From: Porphyromonas sp. oral taxon 275
GTDB lineage: Bacteria > Bacteroidota > Bacteroidia > Bacteroidales > Porphyromonadaceae
Assembly (NCBI RefSeq): GCF_018127745.1
Contig: NZ_CP072333.1
Coordinates: forward strand, 2,116,922-2,180,921
DNA length: 64,000 nt
Direction of reading: 5' to 3'
Made by a program: the position numbers and the translations under genes. The notes beneath the pieces are model-generated. The model ran no database searches, had not been told where the DNA came from, and saw only the letters and a list, made by a program, of their open reading frames with translations. The stretch's first letter is position 1; every line of letters starts with the position of its first letter. Shown here piece by piece: positions 8,455 through 62,360 of the stretch.

Positions 8455-8476
8455 TGAGACTGATATCCCTCGCGGA
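8455..8476. repeat. Single unit of the 22-bp GATATCCCTCA repeat
   Basis: GAGACTGATATCCCTCGCGGAG matches the unit found in arrays elsewhere in the window. Confidence 0.6.
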
Positions 8477-8585
8477 GCCTCTCCCTATACCTCTGCCGTG
8501 CCGCAGCCTATCCCTAGGCGCGGGCGCAGCTGTCGCGCGGGCGACGAGCGAGGGTATAGGGGCTTCCTTTTGGCGAATGATTCCT

Positions 8586-8593
8586 TACCTTTG
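8586..8593 (+). promoter_or_regulatory. Candidate -7 box
   Basis: TACCTTTG fits the TAnnTTTG element, about 190 nt upstream of the gene at 8783. No clear -33 box was found. Confidence 0.35.
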
Positions 8594-8782
8594 CTCCTAG
8601 TCCTGAGAGCCGGTTCCGCAGCTTTTGCTCGCAGTGCGTTATGGGGAGGGAACTAGCTCTAGCTGGGGCTGGGGTAGCGCTGCTGCCCGAGCTTGGGCTC
8701 GGGCGGCTCCGACCTTGAGCCTGCCACTTCTGCGGGCTGAGCAAGGCTAGCCCTAGCGGGGGACGCATACGAAGGAAGCACT

Positions 8783-9361
8783 ATGATACGATTAGCTACT
8801 GCAGCCATCTACAGACGTATAGGCCGACGGATACCCTATGCCAAGCATACGGAGGCCTTGATGCTCCTCTGCAAGGAGGAGCAGGGGCCTGACTATGATG
8901 TGGACGGAGGCATCGCTCCAGATGCCGAGTGCCAGATAGCAGAGCTTGTATTGGGCGAGGGGTGGCAGTGCTTTGATCCCTCCTCGCAGGAGTTCTATCC
9001 CCACGTCATTACGACCCCTGGTATCTGCGGCGAGCGCTCATTGATGGAGGATCTGAAGGACGAACTCCTAGCGTACCGCATGCTAGAGCGCAAGCAAGCC
9101 CTTTTGCAAAAGCACGGGAAGGAGCTGAAGGCGCCCCTCCCCGCCGCCCCCATCCTGCTCCACGCCTACCTCGAGAAGAGCTACACCCAGGAGCTGATCA
9201 CTGCCCTATGTAGCCGCGGAGGGAGGTTCTTCTTGACGGGCATTGAGTATCCGCAGCCTGTGGGCTTCCTCCTCTTTCCCTCAGAGGACGAGGCCCACTG
9301 GATTGAGAGGCTCTCCCCCATGATAGACGAGTTGCGCCTCAAGGACGTTTACTCATTATAG
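8783..9361 (+). CDS. Conserved-looking protein of unknown function
   Basis: This 192-aa soluble protein has no signal peptide and no membrane segment. The start is MIRLATAAIYRRIGRR. The codon usage matches the GC-rich core genes around it and the reverse frames are poorer, so it is very likely a real gene. A central helical part (EDLKDELLAYRMLERKQALL) is followed by a possible alpha/beta domain (FFLTGIEYPQPVGFLLFP). I recognise no family. It is a single gene between the island boundary and the exbB operon, from which it is separated by 126 bp including a promoter. Confidence 0.75.
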   Translation: MIRLATAAIYRRIGRRIPYAKHTEALMLLCKEEQGPDYDVDGGIAPDAECQIAELVLGEGWQCFDPSSQEFYPHVITTPGICGERSLMEDLKDELLAYRMLERKQALLQKHGKELKAPLPAAPILLHAYLEKSYTQELITALCSRGGRFFLTGIEYPQPVGFLLFPSEDEAHWIERLSPMIDELRLKDVYSL

Positions 9362-9445
9362 GGCTACCAGCTCGGGCTTATCCCTTAGCTGAGAAGCCCC
9401 CTAGGGGCTATCGCCTTGCCCCTGAGGCATTCGCCGAATTCTCAG

Positions 9446-9453
9446 TATCTTTG
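9446..9453 (+). promoter_or_regulatory. Candidate -7 box for exbB operon
   Basis: TATCTTTG matches TAnnTTTG and lies 35 nt upstream of the GTG start of exbB. Confidence 0.6.
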
Positions 9454-9487
9454 CTTGATACTAAAACTATAAATAAGAAACTATCAC

Positions 9488-10168
9488 GTGGATACCACAG
9501 CAACAGCCGCACTGGCACAGACGCTGAGCGAGACCGCATCGACTCAGTCGCTCTCCATCCTTGACCTCGCTACCAAGGGCGGGTGGATCATGATCGTACT
9601 GCTCGTCCTCAGCCTCCTAGCGGTATACATCTTCGTCAGCAAGTTCATCCAGCTGCGCAAGGCCGGCGAGGAGGATAAGTACTTCGTCCAGCGCATCAAG
9701 GACTACGTCGTCGAGGGCAAGACGAGCTCCGCCATCAAGCTCTGTGAGGACACCGACACGCCCTATGCCCGCATGATCCACAAGGGGCTGCTGCGCATCG
9801 GCCGCCCTATGTCGGACATCCTGGTGATCGTGGAGAACGTCGGCAACGTTGAGGTCGGCCGCCTAGAGAAGGGTCTCCCCATCCTGGCTACCGTAGCCGC
9901 AGGGGCGCCGATGATCGGCTTCCTCGGGACGGTGACGGGGATGGTACGTGCCTTCTTCGATATGGCTAATGCAGGCTCGGGCGGCGTGGACGTCGCGCTG
10001 CTCTCGGGCGGGATCTATGAGGCCCTGGTGACGACCGTCGGGGGGCTCGTCGTAGGGATCATCGCCCTCTTTGCCTACAACTACCTCGTGGCCGAGCTCG
10101 ACAAGGTCGTGGGTAAGATGGAGGCGAAGACCGTCGAATTCATGGACCTGCTGAATGAGGTTCACTAA
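9488..10168 (+). CDS. exbB: ExbB/TolQ/MotA-family proton channel
   Basis: This 226-aa inner-membrane protein has three TM segments (about 33-53, 128-153, 170-193). The MotA/TolQ/ExbB motifs lie in the second half (PILATVAAGAPMIGFLGTVTGM; ALVTTVGGLVVGI). With ExbD it uses the proton gradient to energise TonB for transport through outer-membrane receptors such as the SusC proteins in this window. The chosen start is a GTG at 9488; the next in-frame ATG would remove the N-terminal periplasmic segment and cut into TM1. exbD follows after 11 nt. Confidence 0.93.
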   Translation: MDTTATAALAQTLSETASTQSLSILDLATKGGWIMIVLLVLSLLAVYIFVSKFIQLRKAGEEDKYFVQRIKDYVVEGKTSSAIKLCEDTDTPYARMIHKGLLRIGRPMSDILVIVENVGNVEVGRLEKGLPILATVAAGAPMIGFLGTVTGMVRAFFDMANAGSGGVDVALLSGGIYEALVTTVGGLVVGIIALFAYNYLVAELDKVVGKMEAKTVEFMDLLNEVH

Positions 10169-10179
10169 GGCTGGGTACG

Positions 10180-10611
10180 ATGGGACTCAAGCGTAAGACC
10201 AAGGTCTCCGAGACCTACAGCATGGCTTCGATGACGGACGTCATCTTCCTGCTGCTCATCTTCTTCCTCGTCACCAGTACGATCATCGTACCCAATACGA
10301 TCAAGGTGACGCTGCCTACCTCGGCACCCCAGTCGAGCCCTGAGCAGCCCGCGGCACGCATCACCGTGACGCCCGACCTGCACTACTACCTCGGTATCGA
10401 CCGTGAGGCCCCCGTCGAGCTGAGCCGCGAGGCCCTCGGCGAGCAGCTGGCGATCTTCGCAGCCGAGCATCCCGAGGCCTACGTCTCCATCCAGGCCGAT
10501 GAGAGCGTCCCCTACCGCGAGGTCGTAGGCGTCATCAATGCTGCGGCGACCTCCTCGCTGCGTGTGGTGCTTGCTACGCGCGCCGAGACCCCCAGCACCC
10601 CTACACGCTAG
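10180..10611 (+). CDS. exbD: ExbD/TolR-family energy-transducing protein
   Basis: This 143-aa protein has a short cytoplasmic N-terminus, one TM helix (about 18-38) that carries the conserved Asp in 'MASMTDVIFLLLIFFL', and a periplasmic domain. The Asp is the proton-carrying residue in this family. The gene lies between exbB and tonB in the same operon with gaps of 11 and 7 nt, so the three form one energy-transduction unit. Confidence 0.93.
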   Translation: MGLKRKTKVSETYSMASMTDVIFLLLIFFLVTSTIIVPNTIKVTLPTSAPQSSPEQPAARITVTPDLHYYLGIDREAPVELSREALGEQLAIFAAEHPEAYVSIQADESVPYREVVGVINAAATSSLRVVLATRAETPSTPTR

Positions 10612-10618
10612 CCTCCCT

Positions 10619-11461
10619 ATGGATCCTCAGGATAGATCTAGGATACAGCGCCGCGCCCTAGGCCTGGTCATCACCCTCGCGCTACACGGACTGCTCCTGG
10701 GGCTGCTGGCCTTCATGATGCTCCGTGTGGAGCGTCCGCAGCCCAAGCCTGTGGAGCTCCTCGTAGCGGTCAACGTGGGTAATGTCCCCCAGGCCTCTGG
10801 TGCCGAGGAGCCTGGCGGAGTGCAGACGCCCGAGCCGCAGCGGCAGGAGGTCTCTGCGCCTCCCGTCGTCGAGCCGCGTCCCCAGCCCGTCCAGCCCAAG
10901 GTGCGCCCCAAGACGCCTCCCGCCGAGCCCATCAAGACGCAGCAGCACGAGCCCAGCCTCCACGCCGCTGAGGTCGAGGCTCGCAAGGAGGCCGAGCGTC
11001 GCGCACGCGCTGAGGCGGAGGCCGCACGCCGTGCTGCAGCCGAGGCTGCCGCTCGTGAGGCCGCCCGCCAGCAGGTGGGGCGCTCCGTGGCAGGTGCCTT
11101 CGGCGCCCAGTCAGGCAAGGCTGGCTCACAGGGTACGGCTAGCTCGGGCTCGGGCAACCAAGGGAACCCCAACGGCAGTGCCGGCAGCTACGCGCTAGCA
11201 GGCCGCAGCGTGGTCAGCAACGGCGGTGTGCTGGCACGCCCCGCCACGAGCCGAGCTGTCGATGGCGTGGTCCGTGTACGTATCGTCGTCGATGGTGCGG
11301 GGCACGTGATGCGTGCTACCGTAGCTCAGGGGACGAACATCGCCGACACGAGCATCCGCAACGCAGCGCTCGCCGCAGCGCGAGCTACGCGCTTCAACGC
11401 TGTCGCTGGAGCCGAGGAGCAGGAGGGGATCATCACCTACCGCTTCAAGATCCAGGACTAG
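10619..11461 (+). CDS. tonB: TonB-family energy transducer
   Basis: The start is placed at the ATG 10619-10621 (MDPQDRSRIQRRALG), 7 nt after exbD. The frame is open further upstream but that part overlaps exbD. The 280-aa protein has one N-terminal TM helix (about 15-35), a long Pro-rich then Ala/Glu/Arg-rich linker (about 45-150) that spans the periplasm, a Gly/Ser stretch, and a C-terminal TonB domain (about 195-280: DGVVRVRIVVDGAGHV...AARATRFNAV...GIITYRFKIQD). It would couple the ExbB/ExbD motor to TonB-dependent receptors. Confidence 0.92.
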   Translation: MDPQDRSRIQRRALGLVITLALHGLLLGLLAFMMLRVERPQPKPVELLVAVNVGNVPQASGAEEPGGVQTPEPQRQEVSAPPVVEPRPQPVQPKVRPKTPPAEPIKTQQHEPSLHAAEVEARKEAERRARAEAEAARRAAAEAAAREAARQQVGRSVAGAFGAQSGKAGSQGTASSGSGNQGNPNGSAGSYALAGRSVVSNGGVLARPATSRAVDGVVRVRIVVDGAGHVMRATVAQGTNIADTSIRNAALAAARATRFNAVAGAEEQEGIITYRFKIQD

Positions 11462-11499
11462 CCCTCTTCTCTCTTACTACTTATAGACCCGTATCAACT

Positions 11500-12054
11500 A
11501 TGGCTAAGAACATCTATGTCTTCCTGGCCGAGGGCTTCGAGGAGATCGAGGCCGTGACGACCATCGACCTCCTGCGCCGCGCAGGACTCCCCACCCATAT
11601 CGTCGCCGTCGGGGATAGCCCCCGTGTGACGGGCGCCCATGGCATCGTCGTTCAGGGCGACGTGCTCGTCGACGAGGTCTACAGTGCCGACGTCCAGGCC
11701 CTGGTCCTCCCGGGAGGACTGCCTGGGGTGACGAACCTCAAGGCTTCGGCCAAGCTCCAGACGCTGCTCCAGGATGCTGCCCAGGCGGGCAAGTGGCTGG
11801 CCGCCATCTGCGCCGCGCCCTCCATCCTTGGCGAGCGGGGCTATCTCGAGGGACGCGAGGCTACGGCTTACCCAGGCTTCGAGCAGTACCTCACGGGCGC
11901 TGCAGCACAGCCGCTGGGGGTCGTTCGCTCAGGCAACATCATCACGGGGCGCAGCGCAGGCTCGACCGTTGACTTTGCCCTTGAGCTCATCAAGGCCATC
12001 GAGGGAGAGGACAAGGCAGCCGAAGTCGCTCGCGCTATCGTCTACCAGCGATGA
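11500..12054 (+). CDS. DJ-1/PfpI (YajL-like) family protein
   Basis: This 184-aa protein covers the whole DJ-1 fold. The conserved acidic residue is in AEGFEEIEA (about 10-18), and the nucleophilic Cys104 lies at the elbow AAICAAP. This family includes YajL, DJ-1 and related protective or chaperone-like proteins; the exact reaction is debated. It follows tonB by 38 nt and overlaps the MazG-like gene by 4 nt (ATGA), so both are probably translated together. Confidence 0.88.
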   Translation: MAKNIYVFLAEGFEEIEAVTTIDLLRRAGLPTHIVAVGDSPRVTGAHGIVVQGDVLVDEVYSADVQALVLPGGLPGVTNLKASAKLQTLLQDAAQAGKWLAAICAAPSILGERGYLEGREATAYPGFEQYLTGAAAQPLGVVRSGNIITGRSAGSTVDFALELIKAIEGEDKAAEVARAIVYQR

Positions 12055-12392
12055 GCCTCGAGGAAGCGCAGCGCGCCGTAGATACCTGGATCCAGGAGTA
12101 CGGCGTCCGCTACTTCTCCCCGCTGACCAATATGGCCATCCTCACCGAGGAGGTCGGGGAGGTCGCTCGCCTCATGGCGCGCCAGTACGGCGACCAGAGC
12201 TCCAAGCCCAGCGACGAGGGACGCCAGCTCGGCGATGAGCTAGCCGACGTCCTCTGGGTCGTGCTGTGCCTGGCGAACCAGACGGGGGTGAACCTCACCG
12301 AGGCCTTCGCCCGCAATCTGGAGAAGAAGACGCAGCGCGACGCCACACGCCACCACGACAATCCTAAGCTACGCCCCCAGGAGGGCGAATAA
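12051..12392 (+). CDS. MazG-like nucleotide pyrophosphohydrolase
   Basis: This 113-aa protein has the MazG metal-binding pattern: EEVGE at about 27-31 and DELADVLW at about 62-69. The family hydrolyses nucleoside triphosphates or modified dNTPs to monophosphates and pyrophosphate. It is a single-domain protein, much shorter than E. coli MazG. The start ATG overlaps the stop codon of the DJ-1 gene. A hairpin at 12397-12432 follows the stop. Confidence 0.88.
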   Translation: MSLEEAQRAVDTWIQEYGVRYFSPLTNMAILTEEVGEVARLMARQYGDQSSKPSDEGRQLGDELADVLWVVLCLANQTGVNLTEAFARNLEKKTQRDATRHHDNPKLRPQEGE

Positions 12393-12396
12393 GACA

Positions 12397-12432
12397 AGGG
12401 CAGCCCTCCGCACACATGGCGGTGGCTGCCCT
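12397..12432 (+). terminator. Hairpin after the MazG-like gene
   Basis: AGGGCAGCC (12397-12405) pairs with GGCTGCCCT (12424-12432). There is no clean T-run, so it may be a weak terminator or a spacer between the MazG-like gene and deoC. Confidence 0.5.
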
Positions 12433-12452
12433 ACATTCATTAAACTATTACT

Positions 12453-13328
12453 ATGGTAGAGACCAATCACAGCAAGTATCAGGAGGCCTTCGACGCCTTC
12501 GCCCCCGCGCTTACGCTCGCCGAGATCGAGCAGCGTGTGGCCAAGATCCTCAGCGAGCGCTACGAGGCCAACAACTGCGCCGAGGTCAAGAAGTTCCTCC
12601 ACTCCACGATCGACCTGACGACGCTCACGGCACGCGATACCGAGGCCAGCGTCGCCGAGCTGGTAAGCCGTGTCAATGACTTCGAGGGCACGGAGGATAT
12701 CCCCAGCGTCGCCGCCATCTGCGTCTACCCCAACTTCGTCAAGACCGTGCGTGAGCTGCTGACCGACGAGTCCGTGCAGGTGGCCTGCGTCAGCGGCTGC
12801 TTCCCCGCCAGCCAGAGCTTTATCGAGGTCAAGATCGCGGAGACCGCCCTGGCTATCGCAGCGGGCGCAGACGAGATCGACATCGTGCTCAACCTCGGGG
12901 CCTTCCTCGCAGGTGACTACAGCGAGGCCGCTACCGAGATCGAGGAGCAGAAGGCGACGGCACGCGATGCGCGCCTCAAGGTCATCCTCGAGACGGGCGC
13001 CCTGCGTGAGCCCGAGGCCATCCGTCGTGCTGCTATCCTAGCGCTCTTCGCCGAGGCGGACTTCCTCAAGACCTCGACGGGCAAGGAATATCCTGGGGCT
13101 GACCTCGTAGCCGCCTACATCCTCTGCTCGGTGCTGCGCGAGTACCACGAGAAGTATGGCCAGCTGCGTGGGGTGAAGTTCAGCGGCGGCATCCGTACGC
13201 CCGAGGATGCGGTGAAGTACTACTGCATCGTCGAGGCCGTGCTGGGCAAGGAGTGGCTGACCAACGAGCTCTTCCGTATCGGCGCCTCCAGCCTCGTCGA
13301 GAGCCTCGAGCGCGAGCTCGTCGGCTAG
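12453..13328 (+). CDS. deoC: Deoxyribose-phosphate aldolase
   Basis: This 291-aa TIM-barrel enzyme cleaves 2-deoxyribose 5-phosphate to glyceraldehyde 3-phosphate and acetaldehyde in nucleoside salvage. The Schiff-base lysine is K206 in FLKTSTG. The phosphate-binding/second lysine motif is VKFSGGIRT (about 243-251), and the 'GADEIDIVLN' strand is also typical. It is longer than E. coli DeoC (259 aa) at the N-terminus. It comes 60 nt after the MazG-like gene, also a nucleotide-handling protein. Confidence 0.93.
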   Translation: MVETNHSKYQEAFDAFAPALTLAEIEQRVAKILSERYEANNCAEVKKFLHSTIDLTTLTARDTEASVAELVSRVNDFEGTEDIPSVAAICVYPNFVKTVRELLTDESVQVACVSGCFPASQSFIEVKIAETALAIAAGADEIDIVLNLGAFLAGDYSEAATEIEEQKATARDARLKVILETGALREPEAIRRAAILALFAEADFLKTSTGKEYPGADLVAAYILCSVLREYHEKYGQLRGVKFSGGIRTPEDAVKYYCIVEAVLGKEWLTNELFRIGASSLVESLERELVG

Positions 13329-13510
13329 CCTCACCGCCGGCCGCGATCCCTAAGGGCTGCTTCTCCGCCTCCATCCGCAGCATGTAGCCAGCCAAGCACT
13401 GCAGCGCGCAGCGTATAAGGCCCGCACCGCCGCGCCCACGTGTAGCATATAGCTAGCCTAGCACCACGACGTGCCACCGTCCGACCGCGGCCTGCCTCGC
13501 AGCCCAATAG

Positions 13511-13559
13511 AAACGACAAGGACCTCTAGGAGCATCGCTCCTAGAGGTCCTTGTCGTTT
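13511..13559 (-). terminator. Terminator of tRNA-Lys (and of deoC)
   Basis: A perfect 23-bp stem (13511-13533 with 13537-13559) has a 3-nt loop. On the minus strand it is followed by TTTCTATT, and it begins 1 nt past the tRNA 3' end. It can also serve the convergent deoC transcript. Confidence 0.8.
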
Positions 13560-13560
13560 G

Positions 13561-13633
13561 TGAACCAGCTGGGGTTCGAACCCAGGACCCCATCCTTAAA
13601 AGGGATGTGCTCTACCGACTGAGCTACTAGTTC
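13561..13633 (-). tRNA. tRNA-Lys(TTT)
   Basis: A full cloverleaf is visible: acceptor GAACTAG/CTGGTTC, D-arm GCTC...GAGC, anticodon stem CATCC/GGATG with loop CTTTTAA (anticodon TTT), T-arm CTGGG-TTCGAAC-CCCAG, and discriminator A. The CCA end is not encoded. Confidence 0.97.
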
Positions 13634-13687
13634 TACCTTAATTCAAGCCACGTGCTCCCCTTGCGGCGTAGGCGTAACTTGCGAGGG

Positions 13688-13695
13688 CAAAGATA
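13688..13695 (-). promoter_or_regulatory. Candidate -7 box for tRNA-Lys
   Basis: TATCTTTG on the minus strand lies 55 nt before the tRNA 5' end. Confidence 0.55.
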
Positions 13696-13879
13696 CGTAA
13701 AGATTGCCAAAAGCGCAAGCTAGCCCGCCACGAGAGCATGGACTGGGGAAGGCTAGCAGATGACTGATTGCGCTGGGAGGGGCAAGGGTTTAGTCCTTTG
13801 TCTATTCGCTTGCTCCGCCCTTGCACCTCCAGCCCTCCAGCTTTAGCTCGCTTCGCAGCCTAACCCCGCGGCTTCGTCC

Positions 13880-13962
13880 CCCTTATCCCTCAGCCCCGCG
13901 GCTGATATCCCTCACGGCTCTGACGGACGTCCCTCACGGGGCTGAGGGATATCGGTCAGGAA
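13880..13962. repeat. 22-bp GATATCCCTCA repeat array
   Basis: About four units are seen, including GACGGACGTCCCTCACGGGG. The array ends in a reversed unit, GCTGAGGGATATCGGTCAG, as in the arrays at 17.5 and 30.0 kb. Confidence 0.75.
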
Positions 13963-14081
13963 GCAGAGGGGTATGCATCAACACTGTGCTCTTTTGGGGT
14001 CGTGGCGAAGCAAGTTGTAAGGGAGGGGATGCGTCAGGCCTGCCGTAGCAGGGCTAGGACGCGCTTCGTAGTTATAAAGTG

Positions 14082-14118
14082 CAAGGCCCCGCAGCTCGTG
14101 TCGAGCTACGGGGCCTTG
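14082..14118 (-). terminator. Terminator of rpoD
   Basis: A 17-bp stem with one mismatch (14082-14098 with 14102-14118) has a 3-nt loop and lies 59 nt past the rpoD stop codon. Confidence 0.65.
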
Positions 14119-14176
14119 GCCTTAGGGGGGGAGGCGAGCGTCCTTCGGATGGGACGGGCGCCTCGCGGGGATGGGG

Positions 14177-15034: not shown

Positions 15035-15138
15035 CGTGTATCTCTATGTCTTATATGTCTTCGTCTAAAGTGGTGGAGGCCCCAGCGCGGGGATAGGTCA
15101 GGCTAGCGCCTACCGATTCGCTGGGCTCGAAATAGGCG

Positions 15139-15146
15139 CAAAGATA
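15139..15146 (-). promoter_or_regulatory. Candidate -7 box for rpoD
   Basis: TATCTTTG on the minus strand lies 105 nt upstream of the rpoD start codon. Confidence 0.5.
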
Positions 15147-15956: not shown

Positions 15957-16005
15957 GAGAGGGGGCTCTGAGGCTAAGGGCTACCGTCGGGCCACGAGGC
16001 CGCGA

Positions 16006-17478: not shown

Positions 17479-17563
17479 CTGACCGATATCACTCAGCCGT
17501 CTGACTGACGAGCCTCATGGTGCTGACTGATGGCACTCGCGGGGCTGAGGGATATCGGTCAGG
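17479..17563. repeat. 22-bp GATATCCCTCA repeat array
   Basis: Units start at 17479, 17501, 17523 and 17545, exactly 22 bp apart. The last is the reversed unit CTGAGGGATATCGGTCAGG. Confidence 0.85.
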
Positions 17564-17784: not shown

Positions 17785-19035
17785 ATGAACAGAAACGAAT
17801 ATGAAATCATGGCGCCTGTCGGCAGCTATGAGTCGCTCATGGCGGCCATAGGTGCGGGCGCTGACTCGGTATACTTCGGCATCGAAGGGCTCAATATGCG
17901 CTCCAAGAGCGCCAATAACTTCACCACCGAAGACCTCCACAAGATCGCAGCCATCTGCCGTGAACACGGTGTCAAGAGCTATCTGACGGTCAATACCATT
18001 ATATATGACGAGGACCTGGAGCTCATGCGTCAGATCATCGACGCAGCCAAGGCGGCTCAGGTCTCCAGCATCATCGCCGCCGACGTGGCCCCGATGCTCT
18101 ACGCGCGTAGTATAGGTGTGGAGGTGCATCTCTCCACGCAGCTTAATATCACCAACGTCGAGGCGCTGCGCTTCTACGCACAGTTCGCCGACGTCGTCGT
18201 CCTGGCGCGCGAGCTCAACATGGATCAGGTGGCTGCCATTCACCGTGCCATCATCGAAGAGCCTATCCTAGGGCCTGGGGGCGCACCGATTCGTATCGAG
18301 ATGTTCGCCCACGGCGCGCTCTGCATGGCGGTCTCGGGTAAGTGTTACCTAAGCCTCCACGAGCAGGGCAAGAGCGCCAACCGCGGGAGCTGCTCGCAGA
18401 TCTGCCGGCGCTCCTATGAGGTCAAGGATAAGGAGACGGGCATCGAGCTGGAGGTGGACAACCAGTATATCATGTCCCCCAAGGACCTCAAGACGATCCA
18501 CTTCCTCAACAAGATGCTGGACTCGGGCGTGCGCGTCCTCAAGATCGAGGGACGTGCGCGTGGGCCCGAGTACGTCGACGCCGTGGTGCGCTCCTATCGA
18601 GAGGCGGTGGATGCCTACTGCGCGGGTACCTTCAGCGAGGAGCGCGTAGCCAAGTGGGATGAGCACCTGGGGCAGGTCTTCAACCGCGGCTTCTGGGACG
18701 GCTACTACCTGGGGCAGCGCCTCGGGGAATGGACTTCGTCCTATGGCTCGTCGGCGACGAAGCAGAAGGTCTACGTGGCGAAGACCAATAAGTACTTCTC
18801 CAAGATCGGCGTCGGAGAGTTCGCCGTGGAGAGTGGTGCGATCCAGGTCGGCGATGAGCTGCTGATCACAGGGCCTACGACGGGCCTCGTTCGCTTCACC
18901 GTCGAGGAGCTGCGCGTGGATATGGAGCCCGTCGAGCGTGCCGAGAAAGGGCAGGTCTGCTCCATCGCTGTGCCCGACAAGGTACGCCCTGGGGACCGTG
19001 TCTATATCTTCAGTGACAGGACGGTCAAGCAGTAG
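17785..19035 (+). CDS. U32 peptidase family protein (TrhP/YegQ-like)
   Basis: The start is set at the ATG 17785 (MNRNEYEIMAPVGSYESLMA): the product then begins as U32 proteins do and the promoter box lies just before it. The upstream part of the frame overlaps that promoter and a repeat array. The 416-aa protein has the U32 signature around EMFAHGALCMAVSGKCYLS and further Cys residues in GSCSQICRRSYEV, which could bind an iron-sulfur cluster. Members such as TrhP act in tRNA U34 hydroxylation. The related P. gingivalis PrtC was reported as a collagenase. I favour the tRNA-modification role, but this is inference. Confidence 0.88.
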   Translation: MNRNEYEIMAPVGSYESLMAAIGAGADSVYFGIEGLNMRSKSANNFTTEDLHKIAAICREHGVKSYLTVNTIIYDEDLELMRQIIDAAKAAQVSSIIAADVAPMLYARSIGVEVHLSTQLNITNVEALRFYAQFADVVVLARELNMDQVAAIHRAIIEEPILGPGGAPIRIEMFAHGALCMAVSGKCYLSLHEQGKSANRGSCSQICRRSYEVKDKETGIELEVDNQYIMSPKDLKTIHFLNKMLDSGVRVLKIEGRARGPEYVDAVVRSYREAVDAYCAGTFSEERVAKWDEHLGQVFNRGFWDGYYLGQRLGEWTSSYGSSATKQKVYVAKTNKYFSKIGVGEFAVESGAIQVGDELLITGPTTGLVRFTVEELRVDMEPVERAEKGQVCSIAVPDKVRPGDRVYIFSDRTVKQ

Positions 19036-24339: not shown

Positions 24340-24452
24340 GCGTGAGGAATATCGGTGGCTGAGCCTGAGAGATATCAGTCAGCGCGCTGAGGGACGACCA
24401 TGGCGGACGTGAGGGATATCGGTGACGGTGGCTGAGGGATATCCCTCAGCGG
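24340..24452. repeat. 22-bp GATATCCCTCA repeat array
   Basis: Degenerate units include a perfect 20-bp palindrome at 24431-24450 (GCTGAGGGATATCCCTCAGC). Confidence 0.7.
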
Positions 24453-29812: not shown

Positions 29813-29935
29813 TCCCCGCCTCGATCCACTCCGCGCCGTCCCCTTCTTTCTCTCTGCGCTGTCCCCACTCTTCACCTCCCTCCCGCTCTGCCCAAGCCCT
29901 CGCCGTACGCCGCCCAAACTAAGCCCCTCGTTCCC

Positions 29936-30017
29936 CTTATCCCTCAGCGACTTGACTGATACCTCTCAGCCGTCTGACTGACGGCACTCACGGCGCTGAG
30001 GGATATCGGTCAGCGAG
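29936..30017. repeat. 22-bp GATATCCCTCA repeat array
   Basis: Units include 29974-29995 (CTGACTGACGGCACTCAC...) and the reversed terminal unit 29996-30017. Confidence 0.8.
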
Positions 30018-34366: not shown

Positions 34367-34454
34367 CTTACCCATATCACTCAGCTCGCTCACTGGTATC
34401 CCTCACGGCGCTGACTGCCGTCCCTCAGCTCGCTGACTGATATCCCTCACGGAG
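34367..34454. repeat. 22-bp GATATCCCTCA repeat array, type example
   Basis: There are four exact 22-bp units starting at 34367, 34389, 34411 and 34433, for example CTGACTGATATCCCTCACGG. Position 7-10 of the unit varies (GATA, GGTA, GCCG) while TCCCTCA is nearly constant. Confidence 0.9.
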
Positions 34455-39587: not shown

Positions 39588-39630
39588 CCTCACAGCAGTG
39601 CGGCCTAGACCGCACAGATACCTCTTAGAT

Positions 39631-39672
39631 CCACAGGGGGAAGGGCTCGAGCCCTTCCCCCTGTGGCTTTTA
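39631..39672 (+). terminator. Terminator of rnr
   Basis: A perfect 18-bp palindromic stem (39631-39648 with 39649-39666) is followed by CTTTTA. Confidence 0.85.
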
Positions 39673-39747
39673 TGAAGCCTAGGCCTTAGTAGGGCGAGCC
39701 TTCTCGCAAGCCAGAGAGGCGAAGGAGGCGGCATAGGATATATCGAG

Positions 39748-40935
39748 GGGTCGCCCCAGCAGGGCTCTGTATTATTTGCTGTGGCTTACCCAGGGTTTGG
39801 TCGCCCTTTCAGGGCTACGCACCCTGGGCTTTGTAGGGGTCGCCCCTATAGGGGCTTATCCTTCCCGCTGGAGTAAGCTAGTAGCGCGCTCAGCGAGTGC
39901 GTCTATCCGCCTGGCGCAAGGCCGCAGCGTGCTCGGCCAGTGCGTCTGTCCTTTTGGGAAAACCTATGCCTTACAGCATCTGATGCCCAGCTCGATGGCA
40001 TCTCGTACTGAGCCCAAGCCCCCTGCAGGGCTCTGTATTATTTGCTGTGGCTAACCCAGGGTTTGGTCGCCCTTGCAGGGCTACGCACCCTGGGCTTTGT
40101 AGGGGTCGCCCCTATAGGGGCTTATCCTTCCCGCTGGAGTAAGCTAGCAGTGCGCTCAGCGAGTGCGTCTATCCGCTGGAGCAAGGTCGCAGCGCACTCG
40201 GCCAGTGCGTCTGTCCTTTTGGTGAAGCCCATGCCTTACAGCATCTGATGCCCAGCTCGATGGCATCTCGTCCTGAGCCCAAGCCCCCTGCGGGGCTCTG
40301 TATTATTTGCTGTGGCTTACCTAGGGTTTGGTCGCCCTTGCAGGGCTACGCACCCTGGGCTTTGTAGGGGTCGCCCCTATAGGGGCTTATCCTTCCTGCT
40401 GGAGTAAGGCGGCAGCGCGCTCAGCGAGTGCGTCTATCCGCCTGGCGCGAGGCTGCGGCGTGCTCAGCCAGTGCGTCTGTCCTTTTGGGGAAACCTATGC
40501 CTTACAGCATCCTGATGCCTAGCTCGATGGCATCTCGTCCTGAGCCCAAGCCCCCTGTAGGGCTCTGTATTATTTGCGATGGTTTACCCAGGGTTTGGTC
40601 GCCCTTGCAGGGCTACGCACCCTGGGCTTTGGGGAGGGATCGCCCCTATAGGGGCTTGCACGGCCGTTGGGGTAAGTCCGGGGCTGCAATCCCGAAGCCC
40701 TGCGGGGGGGGAGACCCACAGCACGGCCCTTTTCCACAGCGCGGCCCTTTTATCCCATGTAGTGCGGGGTGAGGTATTATGCCCCGATAGTCGAGCCCCT
40801 TGGCTAGTTGCCTGGCGGCGAGGTAAGCCCCAGCGGGGCGACCCTTTTCAAAGCCCAGGGTGCGTAGCCCTGCAAGGGCGACCAAACCCTGGGTAGGAGA
40901 TTGCACCCGACGACAGAGCCCTACAGGGGCGACCC
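39748..40935. mobile_element. MITE-like element B with a 266-bp minisatellite
   Basis: The word GCTCTGTATTATTTGC starts near-identical units at 39764, 40030, 40295 and 40562, giving three full copies of 265-267 bp and a partial fourth. Each unit holds the hairpin CCCAGGGTTTGGTCGCCC...GCACCCTGGG followed by GTCGCCCCTATAGGGGCTT. The right end (about 40850-40935) is an inverted copy of the left end (GGGTCGCCCC...AGGGCTCTG...CCCAGGGTTTGGTCGCCC), so the element is bounded by imperfect inverted repeats of about 85 bp sharing words with those of element A. No transposase is present. Confidence 0.75.
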
Positions 40936-40950
40936 TCCAAACGTTAGCTG

Positions 40951-41060
40951 CGCTGAGGAATATCCCTTAGCGTAGCTCACTGATATCCCTGACGGGCGTG
41001 AGGGCCGTCCCTCGGCGCGCTGATGGATATCCCTCAGCCTCGGGGGGACTTATCCCTCGG
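40951..41060. repeat. 22-bp GATATCCCTCA repeat array
   Basis: About five degenerate units directly follow element B, as another array directly follows element A. Confidence 0.7.
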
Positions 41061-41608
41061 GATGCTGGCGGGTGCGGAGCTGCTGCGTCGGCCCTCGGGG
41101 AGGGAGGCTGCTCCGCTGCCTGCCTCGGCCTTCGCCCTTGACCTTCGGCGAGTGGCTGGCAGGGAGGCTTGAGGAGGGCAAAAAGTAGGGAAAAGCGAGC
41201 CCAAAAGCATTTCGGCGGAGGCTGCGAGTTCGCTCGGGGCGCCTTTGAGGCGGCTCGGGAGGGTCGTTTTCATAAAATGAAGAGAAAATTCAGAGCCTGG
41301 GGAGACTTTCGTTTTTTCAAAGAATTTAACTTTCGCCCTCGTGGGGGCTGGCGCGCCCGCATTAGTCTTTTTCGATGCCTTGATCTAGTGCCTAGCCCCG
41401 GTACAAGGGTCTCTCAAGTGCGCCCTCATCGGCTGGCTGCACCCCGAGATCTTAGGGGGCCTAGCCCGCCGCACGAGGGGCAGCGCGCTGAGATCCCAGT
41501 GGAGGCAAAGTGGTTAATAAGTGTAAAGGTATTTAATAACAAATTTAGGAAAGAAATTTCCTAATTTTCAGCGCTTTATCATCCCTAGGTTTCGCTAAAA
41601 AAATTACC

Positions 41609-41616
41609 TATATTTG
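41609..41616 (+). promoter_or_regulatory. Candidate -7 box for the second susC operon
   Basis: TATATTTG matches TAnnTTTG in an AT-rich patch, 118 nt upstream of susC. TTTC at 41590 is too near to be a standard -33 box. Confidence 0.5.
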
Positions 41617-41733
41617 CCCCGTGGATGAGCTCCCTCCCCAGGCGCTGCCCTCGGGCTCGGGCTCGTCTCCCAAATAAGGACAATAAACGCAACGTGTATA
41701 AGAAGCACTAACTACCACTTAACAAGAACACCT

Positions 41734-50960: not shown

Positions 50961-51102
50961 AGCCTGGTCTTGACGGGCTGCGTCCCGCGCTGGGGCTAGG
51001 CTGAGGCCGATCGACTAGGCCGCTTGCAGTGACTCGCCCAAGTCGCACGAGGACGCGCCCGAGGCCTGCGCCGCGAGGCGATAGGCTGTCGACAGCTCTT
51101 CG

Positions 51103-51183
51103 AGGGCTATCCCTCAAGGGGCTGACTGCTATCCCTGAGCTCAGTGAGGGACGTCCCTCAGCTCTCTGACTGATATCCCTCAG
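51103..51183. repeat. 22-bp GATATCCCTCA repeat array
   Basis: Three to four units, including CTGACTGATATCCCTCAGG at the right end. Confidence 0.75.
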
Positions 51184-51387: not shown

Positions 51388-51793
51388 GGGGATGTCTTGG
51401 CTTTGACAGCATGACGAAGTGATGTGTAAGCATGTAGTGCGCTCTCCTGTCAGCACTATAATCTCGATGAGAGAACCTTTTTAACTGGCGAAAATAACTA
51501 CGCTCTCGCTGCGTAACCGAAGAACAGTAGGTTAACTGCTTAATCACGACTAAGATTGTCGTGACGAGACATCACCCAGGTAGCCCTTTGCCCCGAGGCG
51601 ACTTGATACGGTGGTGCCGGAAAATCGGAGCTCGCTCTGCGAAGGCCCTTGGCGCAGAGTCAGATTTAGAGGGCTAAGGTGCAGCTTTGGTGGCCTCTGC
51701 CGCTTGCTGTGCCCGACAATTGATCAGAGGCTAAACATGTAGAAAGCAGATTAGTTCCATGTTTGGACCGGGGTTCGACTCCCCGCATCTCCA
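51388..51793 (+). ncRNA. ssrA: Transfer-messenger RNA (tmRNA)
   Basis: The 5' end GGGGATG pairs with the 3' end CATCTCC, and the T-arm GGGGTTCGACTCCCC is clear. The tag reading frame at 51487-51516 encodes GENNYALAA and a TAA stop; ENNYALAA-type tags are usual in Bacteroidetes. The RNA frees stalled ribosomes together with SmpB and marks the unfinished protein for degradation. The CCA end is not encoded; the discriminator is A51793. Confidence 0.97.
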
Positions 51794-51867
51794 CAGGCTA
51801 AACGAAGCGGAGGCGAGCTAGATCATCTAGCTCGCCTCCGCTTCCTTCGTATAATGCCGCCTCGGGA

Positions 51868-56131: not shown

Positions 56132-56200
56132 AAGCTGCTTGCATTACTGTTCTGCTCTGCTCCAGTGGAAGTTTTGCTGCCCGCTAGATAGCGCTACGAG

Positions 56201-57130: not shown

Positions 57131-57223
57131 CTGCGCGGCCTCCTACGGCGCGGCTTCCCCTTATTCTTTTGCTATCGAAGGGACGGATCAGTCCCAGCGC
57201 TCGCCCCATCTAGGCGAAGGGCT

Positions 57224-57312
57224 CCTGATGGATATCCCTCAGGCGGCTGAGGGACGTCCGTCACGCGTGTGAGGGATAGCAGTCAGCGCTCTGAGGGATA
57301 GCCCTCGAACGG
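57224..57312. repeat. 22-bp GATATCCCTCA repeat array
   Basis: About four units, both orientations mixed (TGATGGATATCCCTCAGGCG and TGAGGGATAGCAGTCAGCGC). Confidence 0.75.
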
Positions 57313-57413
57313 CTGGGATAAGGCTCCCGCCACACGGTGCCTCTCACGGCACTGCCGTCGCACGGATGACGCGCTCACCCTGAGTGCCGTACCCCCGCTC
57401 CGATAAATCTAAC

Positions 57414-57421
57414 TAACTTTG
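57414..57421 (+). promoter_or_regulatory. Candidate -7 box for asd-panC
   Basis: TAACTTTG lies 72 nt upstream of the asd start codon. Confidence 0.55.
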
Positions 57422-57492
57422 TAGTCCCGTAGCTAGGCCAATGCGCCTCGAGCTATGGGACTATCCTTTTGTAGACTGACTGTAGTAGATCA

Positions 57493-58509
57493 ATGAATAT
57501 AGCCATCGTCGGAGTAAGTGGCGCCGTAGGGCAGGAGTTCCTCCGTGTCCTCGCCGAGCGCCCGATCAAAATCGACCGCCTCGAGCTCTTCGCCTCGGCG
57601 CGCAGCGCGGGCAAGACTATTAGCTTCAAGGGCAAGGAGTACACCGTGCGCGAGCTGCGTCACGGCGACGACTTCGAGGGCATAGATATCGCCTTCGTCT
57701 CCGCAGGGGGCAGCGTCTCCCTAGAGTATGCCGAGACCATCACCAAGCACGGCGCGGTGATGATCGATAACTCCAGCGCCTTCCGCATGCAGGAGGACGT
57801 CCCCCTGGTCGTCCCCGAGGTCAATGGTGCCGACGCCCTGGTGCGCCCCCGAGGGATCATTGCCAACCCCAACTGTACGACCATCCAGATGGTCGTCGCC
57901 CTCAACGCCATCGAGCAGCTCTCGCATATCGAGCGCGTCCACGTCGCTACCTATCAGGCTGCTAGCGGTGCTGGTGCGCGCGGGATGGCGGAGCTGGATG
58001 CTCAGACGAAGGCGCTGGCAGAGGGTCGTGAGCCCGAGGTATCGAAGTTCGCCTACCAGCTGGCCTACAACGTCATCCCGCAGATCGACGTCTTCGGCCA
58101 AGACGACTACACCAAGGAGGAGCTGAAGATGTACCACGAGACGCGTAAGATCATGCACAGCGACATCGCCGTCAGCGCCACCTGTGTGCGTGTCCCCGTG
58201 TGCCGTGCCCATAGCGAGGCGATCTGGGTAGAGACGCGTGAGCGCCTCGAGCTGGACGCCGTGCGCGAGGCCTTCCGTCGTGCCCCCGGGCTGGTGCTGC
58301 AGGATGATCCCGAGGATCAGGTCTATCCGATGCCGCTCTTCATCGCGGAGAAGGACCCCGTCTACGTAGGGCGTCTACGCCGTGACCTCAGCTCTGAGCG
58401 CGGCCTGACCTTCTGGTGCGTCGGAGACCAGATCAAGAAGGGTGCGGCCCTGAATGCCGTACAGATCGCCGAATACCTCATCCAGAGCGGCGACTTAGCG
58501 AAGAAGTAA
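57493..58509 (+). CDS. asd: Aspartate-semialdehyde dehydrogenase
   Basis: This 338-aa NADPH enzyme makes aspartate semialdehyde for lysine/DAP, threonine and methionine synthesis. The Rossmann motif is [15 protein letters not shown]. The active-site Cys is in [13 protein letters not shown], with '[15 protein letters not shown]' and a catalytic His in '[12 protein letters not shown]'. It is 15 nt before panC. Confidence 0.96.
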
Positions 58510-58524
58510 CCACTACCTACCATA

Positions 58525-59367
58525 ATGAAGATTTATAAGGAGATCGAGGGGCTGCAGTCCTTCGTAGCGGAGCAGCGCGCCGCAGGCAAGCGTATTGGCT
58601 TTGTCCCCACTATGGGAGCGCTACATGCTGGACACCTAAGCCTCGTCGCCCGTGCCCTCCAGAGCTGCGACCTATGTGTCGTCAGTGTCTTTGTCAACCC
58701 CACACAGTTCAACAATCCTCGAGACCTCGAGACCTATCCCCGAGACCTCGAGGCCGACGCTTGTCTGCTGGAGGCGGCGGGTGCTACGGCGCTCTTCGCC
58801 CCCGAGGTGACGACGATCTACCCCGAGCCCGATACGCGCGTCTTCGACGTCGGTGCCGTGGCTGAGGTCATGGAGGGCGCCTACCGCCCAGGGCACTTCA
58901 ATGGGGTGATGCAGGTCGTCTCACGTCTCTTCGACATCGTCCGACCCGACTGTGCCTTCTTCGGCGAGAAGGACTTCCAGCAGATCGCCGTTATCCGCGC
59001 CATGGCCCGTCAGATCGCGAGCCCCGTGGAGATCATCGCTTGCCCCATCGTCCGCGAGGAGGATGGACTGGCGCGCAGCAGCCGCAATCTGCTGCTTACC
59101 CCCGAGGGCCGTGCCGCTGCCCCCAGCATCTACCGCATCCTCTCCGAGAGCCGCGGCTGGGTCGAGACGCTGAGCCCCCAGGAGCTCATCGCCCGTGTGA
59201 CCGAGGAGATCAACGCGGTGCCCACGCTGCGCGTCGAGTACTTCGACATCGTAGATACCGATAGTCTCCAGTCCATCCACAGCTGGGTAGATAGCCCCCG
59301 CCCACATGGCTGCATCACCGTCTACTGCGGTGAGGTGCGCCTCATTGATAACATTGCTTACCACTAA
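58525..59367 (+). CDS. panC: Pantothenate synthetase
   Basis: This 280-aa enzyme joins pantoate and beta-alanine with ATP. Motifs: [14 protein letters not shown] (HIGH-type nucleotide-binding), [36 protein letters not shown] and the KMSKS-like [10 protein letters not shown]. It follows asd by 15 nt; beta-alanine comes from aspartate, so the pairing makes metabolic sense. Confidence 0.96.
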
Positions 59368-59387
59368 GCCCGCCCGTCCCTCTGCCT

Positions 59388-60971
59388 ATGCCGACGAAGT
59401 ATTATAGCCGTAGCCTCTCCGTGCTGAGCCTCCTCCTGCTGCTCAGCGCCTGCGGGGTACGCCGTCCCCAGCCCGAGCCCCTAGTCCCTCCCGTCAAGGT
59501 CGATACGACCTCCATCGAGCTCACCCCCTGGGTGCGCCCCACGGGGGACTCGATACGCCAGGAGATGCGCGGGGTGTGGCTCACCACCGTCTGGGGGCTC
59601 GACTGGCCTAAGGATAAGGCCGATACGCCCGACGGCATACGCCGGCAGAAGGAATCCCTAGATCGTACGCTGCGCCGCCTGAAGGCTGACGGCTACAACA
59701 CCGTCTTCCTGCAGGTGCGCCACAGCGGTACGACGCTCTACCGCTCGCCCTATGAGCCCGCCTCACCGGCTATCGCGGGCGAAGGCTTCTTCGACGCTGG
59801 GTACGACCCACTGACCTATGCCGTCGAGGCCTGCCACCAGCTGGGGCTCGCCGTCCACGCCTGGATGGTGACCTATCCCCTGGTCTCGCCCAAGCGCAGC
59901 CCCCATCCGCTGCTGCGTGAGCATGCCGACTGGGCCATCGCCCACAAGGGCAGCTACCACCTCGACCCCGGGAACCCCGAGGTGCGCAGCTACGTGGCGC
60001 ATCTGGCTACCGACCTAGCGCGCCGCTACGCCATCGACGGTGTGCACTTCGATTACTTCCGTTACCCAGAGGCCGCCGAGACCTTCAATGACCGTACGAG
60101 CTACGCGCGCTACGGCGCTAGCTTCCCCAGCAAGGCCGCCTGGCGCCGGGACAACCTCACCCGTCAGCTGCGTGAGGTACGCGACTCCCTCACCAGCATC
60201 GGCTCGGACATCCAGGTCAGTGTCGCTCCGCTGGGCAAGCTGAAGATGATCCCCGACCTAGGCCGCAGCCACGGCTGGACGGCCTATGAGTCCGTCTATC
60301 AGGACCCCGAGACCTGGGGCCGCGAGGGGCTGGTGGACTTCGTCGTACCTATGATGTACTACCGCGGCGACCTCTACAGCCCTTTCCTGCAGGACTGGAA
60401 GGAGAAGGTCGCCCCCTATATCCCCGTCATCCCAGGCCTAGCGGCCTACCGCGTCGAGGAGAGCGGCTGGCCCAGCAGCGTCATCGCCGAGCAGATCGCC
60501 GAGGAGCGTGAGGTCGGGCTGAGTGGCGTCTGCTTCTTCCGTGAGCAGCATACCTCGAGCCGCTTCCCGCTGGTGCGTCAGGTCATCGAGGAGGCCTTTG
60601 CCTCCACGGTGCTGCCGCTGGCCCTCAAGCGCGGTGAGGCTACGGCCCCCGCCGCTCCCGAGGGGCTGCACGCTGTCTTCGTGTCCAAGAAGGAGTTCAA
60701 CCTCTCCTGGACGCTCCCCCGAGGCGCCTCCACGCGTGGCATCACCTACCGCCTCTGGGTGACGACGACCGACAGCCACGGCCGTCGTACCGCGACGCTG
60801 CTGGCCCAGGGGCTCCGTAGCCCTGAGTGCCGCCTGACGCTGGAGGACTTCGTCGGCGATGACTGCGCGGAGTTCGGTGTCGAGGCGGTCAATAGCTTCG
60901 GCGTGGCGACGCCCATCGCCCACGGGCTGGAGCTCAACCTGGCCGCCCTCAGACTGGAGCAGCAGCATTGA
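59388..60971 (+). CDS. GHL10/DUF187-family glycoside-hydrolase-like lipoprotein
   Basis: This 527-aa protein has a lipoprotein signal (LLLLLSACGVRRP, Cys22). A TIM-barrel GHL10 domain (about 60-400) follows: 'EMRGVWLTTVWGLDWPKDK', 'YNTVFLQVRHSGTTLYRSPY', 'DGVHFDYFRYP', 'DFVVPMMYYRGDLYSPFL'. An Fn3-like C-terminal domain (about 425-520) completes it. The family (YngK-like) is linked to peptidoglycan or exopolysaccharide cleavage. Its stop overlaps the hemW start by 4 nt (TTGA). Confidence 0.9.
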   Translation: MPTKYYSRSLSVLSLLLLLSACGVRRPQPEPLVPPVKVDTTSIELTPWVRPTGDSIRQEMRGVWLTTVWGLDWPKDKADTPDGIRRQKESLDRTLRRLKADGYNTVFLQVRHSGTTLYRSPYEPASPAIAGEGFFDAGYDPLTYAVEACHQLGLAVHAWMVTYPLVSPKRSPHPLLREHADWAIAHKGSYHLDPGNPEVRSYVAHLATDLARRYAIDGVHFDYFRYPEAAETFNDRTSYARYGASFPSKAAWRRDNLTRQLREVRDSLTSIGSDIQVSVAPLGKLKMIPDLGRSHGWTAYESVYQDPETWGREGLVDFVVPMMYYRGDLYSPFLQDWKEKVAPYIPVIPGLAAYRVEESGWPSSVIAEQIAEEREVGLSGVCFFREQHTSSRFPLVRQVIEEAFASTVLPLALKRGEATAPAAPEGLHAVFVSKKEFNLSWTLPRGASTRGITYRLWVTTTDSHGRRTATLLAQGLRSPECRLTLEDFVGDDCAEFGVEAVNSFGVATPIAHGLELNLAALRLEQQH

Positions 60972-62095
60972 ACCTCTACCTCCATATCCCTTTCTGCGCG
61001 AGCCGCTGCTCCTACTGCGACTTCTACAAGGAGACGAAGCAGGACGAGCGGCTCGCCTTCCTTCGTGCCCTAGAGATGGAGCTCTGTAGCCGCCGCTCGG
61101 AGCTGCCCGAGGGCGCGCTGGTGGAGCATATCTACCTCGGGGGCGGTACGCCCTCGCAGCTCAGCATCTCCGAGCTGGAGCGCCTCTTCGACACCATCTG
61201 GCGCCACTATCCTATAGCTGAGGGTGGGGAGATCACCATCGAGTGCAACCCCGATGACGTGACGCCCGACTATGCCCGAGGGCTGGCGCAGCTGCCGACC
61301 AACCGCGTGAGCATGGGCGTGCAGAGCTTCCACGAGGCCGATCTGCGCTTCCTCAGCCGCCGCCACAGTGCCGAGCAGGTCACGGCGGCTGTCGACGCGC
61401 TACGCAGCGAGGGACTGACGAACCTTAGCCTCGACCTTATCTACGGCCTCCCCCGACAGACGGAGGAGCTCTGGGAGGCCAATATCGCACGCTTCCTCGA
61501 GCTTGACGTGCCGCACCTCTCCGCCTACCATCTGATCTATGAGGAAGGGACGGCGCTGATGCGTCTGCTGCAGGCGGGTAAGGTGCAGGCGGTGGATGAG
61601 GAGGCGAGCCTACGCTTCTTCGAGCTGCTCATCCAGCGCCTCAAGGCTGCAGGCTACGAGCACTACGAGATCTCTAACTTCGCCCGCCCGGGCTGCTATG
61701 CCCAGCACAATACGGGCTACTGGCAGGGCGTGCCCTACCTCGGCTTCGGCCCCTCGGCGCACAGCTACGACGGCGAGCGCCGACGCAGCTACAATGTCGC
61801 CTCGCTCCGCGACTATATCGCGGGCATGGAGCGCGGCGTGCGTGACTACGAGGAGGAGCTACTGGGCGAGGAGGAGCTGCAGCACGAGTACATCCTCACG
61901 CGTATGCGTACGCAGTGGGGCATCGTCTATGCGGACTATGCGGAGCGCTTCGGCGAGCCGGCCCTCTCGGCTCTGCGTCGCGCTGCCGCGCCCTACCTCG
62001 CGACCGAGCGCCTCACGGAGGCGGGTGGCATCCTGCGCCTCACCGAGCGCGGCGTCTTCGTCTCCGACGGCATCCTTGCCGACCTCTTCGTCTAA
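60968..62095 (+). CDS. hemW: HemW-type radical SAM protein
   Basis: This 375-aa protein has the radical SAM cluster motif C10-x3-C14-x2-C17 in 'PFCASRCSYCDFYKE', then 'YLGGGTPSQLS', 'GVQSFHEADLRFLSRRHS' and 'LIYGLPRQTEELWEANI', with a C-terminal HemN-like domain. HemW binds and inserts haem; it was often misannotated as oxygen-independent coproporphyrinogen oxidase. The start is a TTG at 60968, because the next ATG would remove the cluster motif. It overlaps the previous gene by 4 nt. Confidence 0.92.
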   Translation: MNLYLHIPFCASRCSYCDFYKETKQDERLAFLRALEMELCSRRSELPEGALVEHIYLGGGTPSQLSISELERLFDTIWRHYPIAEGGEITIECNPDDVTPDYARGLAQLPTNRVSMGVQSFHEADLRFLSRRHSAEQVTAAVDALRSEGLTNLSLDLIYGLPRQTEELWEANIARFLELDVPHLSAYHLIYEEGTALMRLLQAGKVQAVDEEASLRFFELLIQRLKAAGYEHYEISNFARPGCYAQHNTGYWQGVPYLGFGPSAHSYDGERRRSYNVASLRDYIAGMERGVRDYEEELLGEEELQHEYILTRMRTQWGIVYADYAERFGEPALSALRRAAAPYLATERLTEAGGILRLTERGVFVSDGILADLFV

Positions 62096-62272
62096 GCCCC
62101 AAGGGGGTCTAAGCCCTGCGCTGCACTTCTTCCGCCCCCGCTTTCCCTTACTTCTCCTTCCCTTGATTTCCCCGTCTTATCTACCTCTCAGCAGGGGGGG
62201 GACGGAAGGTCTCCTTATACCTCAGCTCCAGACGTATAAGCTCCTCCCGCAGCTGCCCCTTAGCGCGTGGCG

Positions 62273-62360
62273 CTCTGATGGATATCCCTCATCCCCGTGA
62301 CGGATATCCCTCACGATGGCTGACTGACGCCCCTCAGGCGGCTGATGGATATCCCTCAGC
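62273..62360. repeat. 22-bp GATATCCCTCA repeat array
   Basis: Four units, for example CTGATGGATATCCCTCAGCG at the right end and CTGACTGACGCCCCTCAGGC before it. Confidence 0.85.

Follow-up and report, generated by a model that had tools for sequence, protein, structure and literature searches.

Arrays of near-fixed size, built of dyad-symmetric units, in the gaps between transcription units of Porphyromonas sp. oral taxon 275

Repeat arrays in the window and their anatomy

The window analysed here, the final 64 kb (64,000 nucleotides) of the single 2.18-Mb contig of Porphyromonas sp. oral taxon 275 (NZ_CP072333.1, positions 2,116,922 to 2,180,921), carries tandem arrays of a short palindromic repeat between its genes. 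Arrays of four dyad-symmetric units are located at 29931..30012 (+), 34368..34449 (+), 51101..51182 (+), 57226..57307 (-) and 17480..17561 (+), the last of which overlaps the longest, not called, start of the open reading frame ending at 19035. The array at 13877..13958 (+) keeps the four-dyad register with a degenerate first dyad. Two further four-dyad arrays contain one 7-bp spacer each: 40954..41036 (-), which is followed by a possible degenerate fifth unit, and 62276..62358 (+), whose orientation was called from a shifted register. The array at 24343..24448 (-) comprises five units with two 7-bp spacers and has a 20-bp palindrome (24431-24450) at its end. A tmRNA (transfer-messenger RNA) gene (Rfam RF00023) occupies 51388-51796. 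A sequence-only reading of this window had listed ten places with such repeats. Nine of them are arrays, and the head-to-tail arrangement, the 20-bp palindrome and the ending of three arrays in GCTGAGGGATATCGGTCAG are all as it described; the tenth, at 8455, is a lone degenerate unit with an array-like right flank (8457..8472, +), a remnant at the edge of a low-GC island. This island (positions 1-8455, ~45% GC compared with 60%) carries a CusA/CzcA-type resistance-nodulation-division (RND) efflux gene and ends at the truncated unit at 8457, as if the arrival of the island or a deletion had cut an array.

The repeat is strongly over-represented and is not confined to the window. Matches to GATATCCCTCA with up to two mismatches number 59 in the window, compared with 15.8 ± 4.0 in 100 shuffles (largest 30); exact matches in the whole genome amount to 166 + 144, and the same pattern read backwards has none. 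For the array statistics, the window was combined with 40 further 20-kb pieces taken at even intervals along the genome (864 kb in total, ~40%). A motif-chain search detected 95 arrays in this sample and none in reversed sequences, from which ~240 arrays are extrapolated for the genome. The unit, originally read as exactly 22 bp, is a symmetric 16-bp dyad (TGA-NN-GATATC-NN-TCA) with a mostly free spacer of ~6 bp. A period of 22 bp accounts for the main distances between good units (22, 44 and 66 bp in 108, 84 and 70 pairs, respectively), and a minority is one base longer (16, 12 and 16 pairs).

Array size varies little. Exactly four units are called in 71 of the 95 arrays, five to seven in 23 and three in one, and the surplus units of the longer arrays are usually degenerate. 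A check of this size was started from 86 perfect units only, without selecting on their neighbours. Partners were found at ±22, 44 and 66 bp, a score of at least 9 of 12 was reached at 5 of 172 places at ±88 bp and none reached it at ±110 bp; the working size of the array is therefore four dyads and is near-fixed. Units that score 11 or 12 of 12 lie inside arrays in 194 of 195 cases, the remaining one standing alone outside genes and none alone in a gene.

Expectation-maximisation oriented 49 of 50 elements in a first set and 94 of 95 in the full set. The oriented four-unit consensus reads TGAGGGATATCCCTCA, TGACTGATATCCCTCA, TGACTGACGTCCCTCA and TGACTGATATCCCTCA, followed by a weak C-rich tail, and is unit-specific. 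Mean pairwise identity among the 94 oriented elements is 0.81 at the symmetric core positions, a value inflated by the array search, which itself selects on the core, 0.46 in the spacers and 0.31 in the flanks 21–40 bp out. To examine this bias, 82 neighbours of perfect units were called with only their outer six letters as the criterion. All 82 retain the inner G and 76 the inner C, and both positions at the centre are divided between two bases (T in 32 and C in 50; A in 33 and G in 47). The most similar pair of elements, compared with 20-bp flanks, is 83% identical; no pair exceeds this value and there is therefore no sign of recent array copying. When gaps are compared with one another, the depth of homology is ~110 at the array centre and has dropped to ~5 at a distance of 100 bp, which indicates that the array itself is the element. 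No leader, tail or terminal repeats were recognised in the flank consensus and the gap-to-gap homology of this genome.

Placement outside genes and outside promoters

The arrays are positioned outside genes in every type of gap. Genes in the sample were called with a simple codon-usage caller (638 genes, 79.5% coding), which is crude and ignores RNA genes. None of the 95 arrays overlaps a called gene, and two, including that at 17480-17561, do so when the longest possible starts are used. Random 88-mers fell wholly outside genes in 336 of 2000 trials, so the arrays avoid genes and are not scattered at random, as the sequence-only reading had maintained. It had also placed them in both convergent and divergent gaps, to which tandem gaps can be added. 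The 89 arrays with two called neighbours occupy, irrespective of gap length, 27 of the 42 gaps in the divergent class, 13 of the 40 in the convergent class and 46 of the 449 in the tandem class; among gaps of at least 400 bp, the corresponding values are 27 of 36, 10 of 16 and 38 of 57, which gives 75 of 110 long gaps when one further gap above 10 kb is counted. Multiple arrays are rare within a gap: 3 of the 86 occupied gaps contain at least two, compared with 16.5 expected from gap length (minimum 9 in 2000 trials). Six of the 35 long gaps without an array contain a lone unit scoring at least 10 of 12. Low GC in the flanks was considered as a cause of these array-less gaps and is weak overall (p 0.12); 7 of the 9 long gaps with a flank GC under 0.56 are without an array.

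The position of the arrays relative to promoters was assessed with TANNTTTG, which we take to be the Bacteroidetes -7 box and which is strongly enriched 20–140 bp upstream of start codons in this genome. Among the 27 divergent gaps with an array, 23 have outward-pointing TANNTTTG boxes to its left and right and the other 4 have them on a single side; outward boxes number 51 and inward ones 2. In tandem gaps, 44 boxes lie between the array and the downstream gene (18.1 kb) and 5 on the upstream side (15.2 kb), and none occurs within the arrays themselves (7.9 kb). The same arrangement is observed in the relative G014 (22 vs 1 in divergent and 17 vs 2 in tandem gaps) and, more weakly, in the relative G021 (6 vs 3 and 5 vs 1). 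With outward boxes on both sides, neither leader transcript should contain the array in most divergent gaps.

This placement bears on whether the arrays act at the level of RNA, as tandem hairpins that serve as bidirectional terminators or insulators. Hairpins could form from the dyads, T- or A-runs stand at the ends of some G014 and G016 arrays, and compensatory changes exceed all shuffles at the dyad 2 inner triplet, which switches between GATATC and GACGTC types (25 vs 9.9, maximum 19). No other position behaves in this way. The outer triplets and the pairs across spacers show no excess over shuffles. Values above the mean and within the shuffled range were obtained for the inner triplet of dyad 3 (10 vs 5.7, maximum 12), for the dyad 2 NN pair (2 vs 0.4, maximum 3) and for the pairing of unit 1 with unit 4 (20 vs 12.6, maximum 22), and the NN pair of dyad 4 is paired clearly less than in shuffles (30 vs 48.7). 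The arrays as a whole thus lack the compensatory base changes of a structured RNA. In addition, no Rfam family matches the window arrays at the gathering threshold (the two matches in the window are a tRNA and the tmRNA), and the main array family of G014 occurs in 0 of 15 convergent gaps compared with 9 of 14 divergent gaps. An RNA-level role, including the insulator proposed earlier, is consequently improbable. Because the promoter-like boxes point outward, compensation is scarce and no orientation trend along the chromosome was found, the arrays are best read as DNA sites.

Two explanations at the DNA level assign the arrays to familiar classes of site. One transcription factor that controls a very large regulon may use them as clusters of ordinary operators, a reading compatible with dyads upstream of promoters and with a median distance of 270 bp between the near edge of the array and the start codon. 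The arrays are, however, remote from promoters for simple repression, the occupied convergent gaps are not expected for operators, the number of sites is near-constant, and array orientation shows no clear tie to gene direction (28 same, 19 opposite); this reading is highly improbable. Alternatively, they may be chromosome-wide marks, such as species-specific DNA-uptake tags or recombination or segregation sites. The species-specific sequence, its high copy number, its dialects among relatives and the presence of arrays in every 200-kb bin of the sampled chromosome are consistent with marks, and P. gingivalis is naturally competent, for which a literature search brought up no paper on an uptake signal. 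Marks of this kind would not be expected to be absent as lone units from genes, to form long arrays in place of short tags or to lack an orientation trend, and we give the idea little credence.

Relatives and turnover of the arrays

The exact motif is restricted to this species, and the layout is more widespread. There are 204 TGANNGATATCNNTCA sites in this genome, 0 or 1 in each of 25 genomes of the same genus and 0–3 in each of 35 more distant genomes. The nearest relatives by RNase R identity, G021 (74%), G014 (73%) and G004 (72%), contain arrays of similar layout and other sequences. G021 has 12 CGAGTTACCATAACTCG arrays with a 23-bp period in 160 kb, of which 10 comprise five units; G014 has 27 CGACCYACSGTRGGTCG arrays in 280 kb, also with a 23-bp period, and 15 of these comprise four units; G004 has GACCTATATAGGTC, GACCAGTACTGGTC and AAAGCTATATAG types with a period of 22 bp. 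Called genes are free of all 39 of these G021 and G014 arrays, and in a looser, period-based set 1 of 65 arrays overlaps one (1/30 in G014, 0/18 in G004 and 0/17 in G021). In addition to its main family, G014 (L082, L116, L118 and L119) contains extended series of 22-bp palindromes, up to ~300 bp in length, whose sequence changes along the series (TTTCCGTACGTAAGAAAATAAA and others). A shared outer grammar, GA..TC, is the top count in G000 (40) and G021 (10) and one of several single matches in G025; it was rejected as a general rule, since a search with fixed spacing did not find it in G004, G014, G022, G020, G012 and G016.

A sequence-blind layout detector, based on a period of 21–24 bp and self-complementarity, was applied to relatives, most of which were sampled by one 20-kb stretch and some by less. 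Within the genus, 10 of 22 other genomes gave matches, with a coding-like match in G024 left out. Another genus of the family was represented by 9 genomes, two of them sampled by under 1.2 kb, and 3 of the 9 gave matches; 10 genomes of other families gave none, and the rate in shuffles was 0.0 per 100 kb. Sensitivity is low (22 arrays in this genome compared with 95 by motif search), so that misses elsewhere mean little, and the matches in G010 (its only one), G025 (one of three) and G033 (one) equally resemble a single long inverted repeat. A detector of dyads alone had too little power in this genome (5 vs 3.3 in shuffles).

Turnover was compared in congeners of about 87–95% identity. A 286-bp stretch of G012 (L114 12543-12829), in which a palindromic array lies between ends resembling terminal inverted repeats (TIRs; ATGATAAAAACGAGCT), faces ~14 bp at the matching gap of G002 and G018. 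The difference is not a clean insertion, since further unmatched bases lie beyond one TIR-like end. A second gap holds an array in each of G012, G002 and G018, every one with its own sequence; the G018 contig stops there, so that one side of this gap is matched in G018. G017 and G020 also differ at one gap. The layout persists while letters and positions turn over among close congeners, which favours a mobile origin. The 18 syntenic gaps found between this genome and congener stretches include none that bears an array here.

These observations raise the question of whether the arrays are solely the remains of a decaying family resembling a miniature inverted-repeat transposable element (MITE) or a repetitive extragenic palindrome (REP), without host function, in which the dyads are the sites of a former mobilising protein and gaps tolerate insertions that genes do not. 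The unit-specific blueprint and the G012 array with its TIR-like ends point in this direction, as does the BrickBuilt repeat of P. gingivalis, which Klein et al. (2015; PMC4596501) describe as a MITE and for which they report some filled and empty sites. On the other side, no leader, tail or terminal repeats were recognised next to the arrays here and near-identical copies are lacking, dyads that are conserved next to more freely varying spacers would not result from an even decay, and one array per gap is more regular than length-weighted chance. Decay alone is therefore a real but rather doubtful explanation. The small mobile element suggested by the sequence-only reading is retained as an origin, which is supported by the unit-specific blueprint, the differing matching gaps and the layout shared with BrickBuilt.

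A boundary reading and known systems

Among the three interpretations offered by the sequence-only reading, a DNA–protein site is best supported because the core is more conserved than the spacer, no clear strand preference exists and the arrays lie outside promoters; the replication role coupled to it gains nothing from the arrays, which have no orientation trend along the chromosome. The explanation tentatively preferred here, which may well be correct, is that the arrays are docking sites for a sequence-specific dimeric host protein and form a boundary outside promoters. Each array would present typically four dyad-symmetric sites 22 bp, or about two helical turns, apart, on which several copies of one abundant protein could dock. 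The resulting nucleoprotein block would occupy the space separating transcription units, past the stop codons and ahead of the promoters, and would most likely act as a boundary that limits read-through, supercoiling or regulatory cross-talk between neighbours. In evolutionary terms, several Porphyromonas genomes and another genus of the family would share one layout, of which the arrays are the dialect of this species; they probably spread in the distant past as a MITE-like element, after which selection would have kept them. A row of bound dimers forming a boundary outside promoters accounts for the symmetry, the spacing, the placement and the constraint on the core. Dispersal and turnover are accounted for by a decayed mobile repeat, and both can be true.

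Several observations weigh against the boundary reading. The unit-specific consensus, with spacers more alike than flanks, partly reflects inheritance. Other species carry several array families at once, which is awkward for one protein, and the turnover among close congeners makes single arrays look dispensable there. Species agree only weakly in which orthologous genes have an array (the best p is 0.01 and most are above 0.05), and the agreement is not clear once both gaps are long. Moreover, 35 of the 110 long gaps have no array and convergent gaps are also occupied. The cognate binding protein is not identified, no systematic search having been made.

Interspersed palindromic repeats are common. 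In enterobacteria, REPs and the bacterial interspersed mosaic elements (BIMEs) built from them are associated with REP-associated tyrosine transposases (RAYTs) and lie at the 3´ ends of genes and are not known to lie between divergent promoters. The arrays resemble them as extragenic palindromes with many copies, mosaic clusters and species specificity, and differ in that they occur between divergent promoters. Membership of a REP/RAYT set was rejected: the only Y1 transposase of the genome (a single PF01797 match) is ringed by many copies of another palindromic repeat, and one array is located ~1.5 kb away in the gap after the gene. The other family, CCCAGGGTTTGGTCGCCCTTGCAGGG, has 7 exact copies in the window (39588-41733) and 11 in L009 (13606-17514), where its association with the RAYT-like Y1 transposase looks like a REP/RAYT set. 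A further intergenic repeat of ~330–360 bp has ~76% identity between gaps of this genome (L020, L069 and L072). The DNA-uptake-sequence dialects of Neisseriaceae are likewise short, species-specific motifs of high copy number, often in inverted pairs, whereas the arrays are long, near-fixed in size and absent from called genes. Carriage by viruses was also dismissed, as no IMG/VR contig matches a two-unit pattern exactly. A literature search, for which most subscription papers were out of reach, returned no description of the layout as a class.

The closest comparison is provided by BrickBuilt. According to Klein et al. (2015; PMC4596501), BrickBuilt of P. gingivalis and P. gulae is an intergenic 23-nt minisatellite within a MITE, with 1 to 22.8 repeats, 19 copies in ATCC 33277, a leader, a tail and IS5-like terminal inverted repeats; bidirectional promoter activity is reported besides the filled and empty sites, and 22-, 23- and 41-nt tandem repeats are mentioned for P. 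gingivalis W83 (PMC4596501). Both systems are tandem repeats confined to intergenic DNA. The BrickBuilt 23-mer, AGAYCATARTATCCTCTCRTRTG, which is also found in G025 (L099 from ~15983), can be read as a 17-bp quasi-dyad, AGA-nn-ATA-r-TAT-nn-TCT, with a 6-bp spacer, which is the same layout; this reading is ours and not that of Klein et al. The letters differ, as does the unit length (23 nt compared with 22 bp of TGANNGATATCNNTCA+N6), and the copy number is 19 compared with the extrapolated ~240. Repeat number, which is variable in BrickBuilt, is typically four here, and the IS5-like terminal repeat GAGACCTTTGCA with up to two mismatches is found in the window at chance level (5 matches vs 4.7 expected); with gap-to-gap homology decaying within ~100 bp of the array centre, no counterpart of the BrickBuilt leader and tail was seen.

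A wider proposal, possible and on present evidence rather unlikely, is that Porphyromonas and the related genus share a fast-diverging boundary-marking system of few-unit dyad arrays with two-turn spacing, one per inter-operon gap outside promoters. Its recognition sequence would be rewritten from species to species together with a putative DNA-binding protein, like insulators with dialects, and BrickBuilt would be a member and not a stray MITE. Compared with the palindromic repeats discussed above, the near-fixed size, the single array per gap, the position between divergent promoters and a layout that is kept while its letters change are unusual. If a protein reads the arrays, transcription-unit boundaries and the co-evolution of site and reader would become directly testable, and the BrickBuilt repeat of P. 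gingivalis would be recast.

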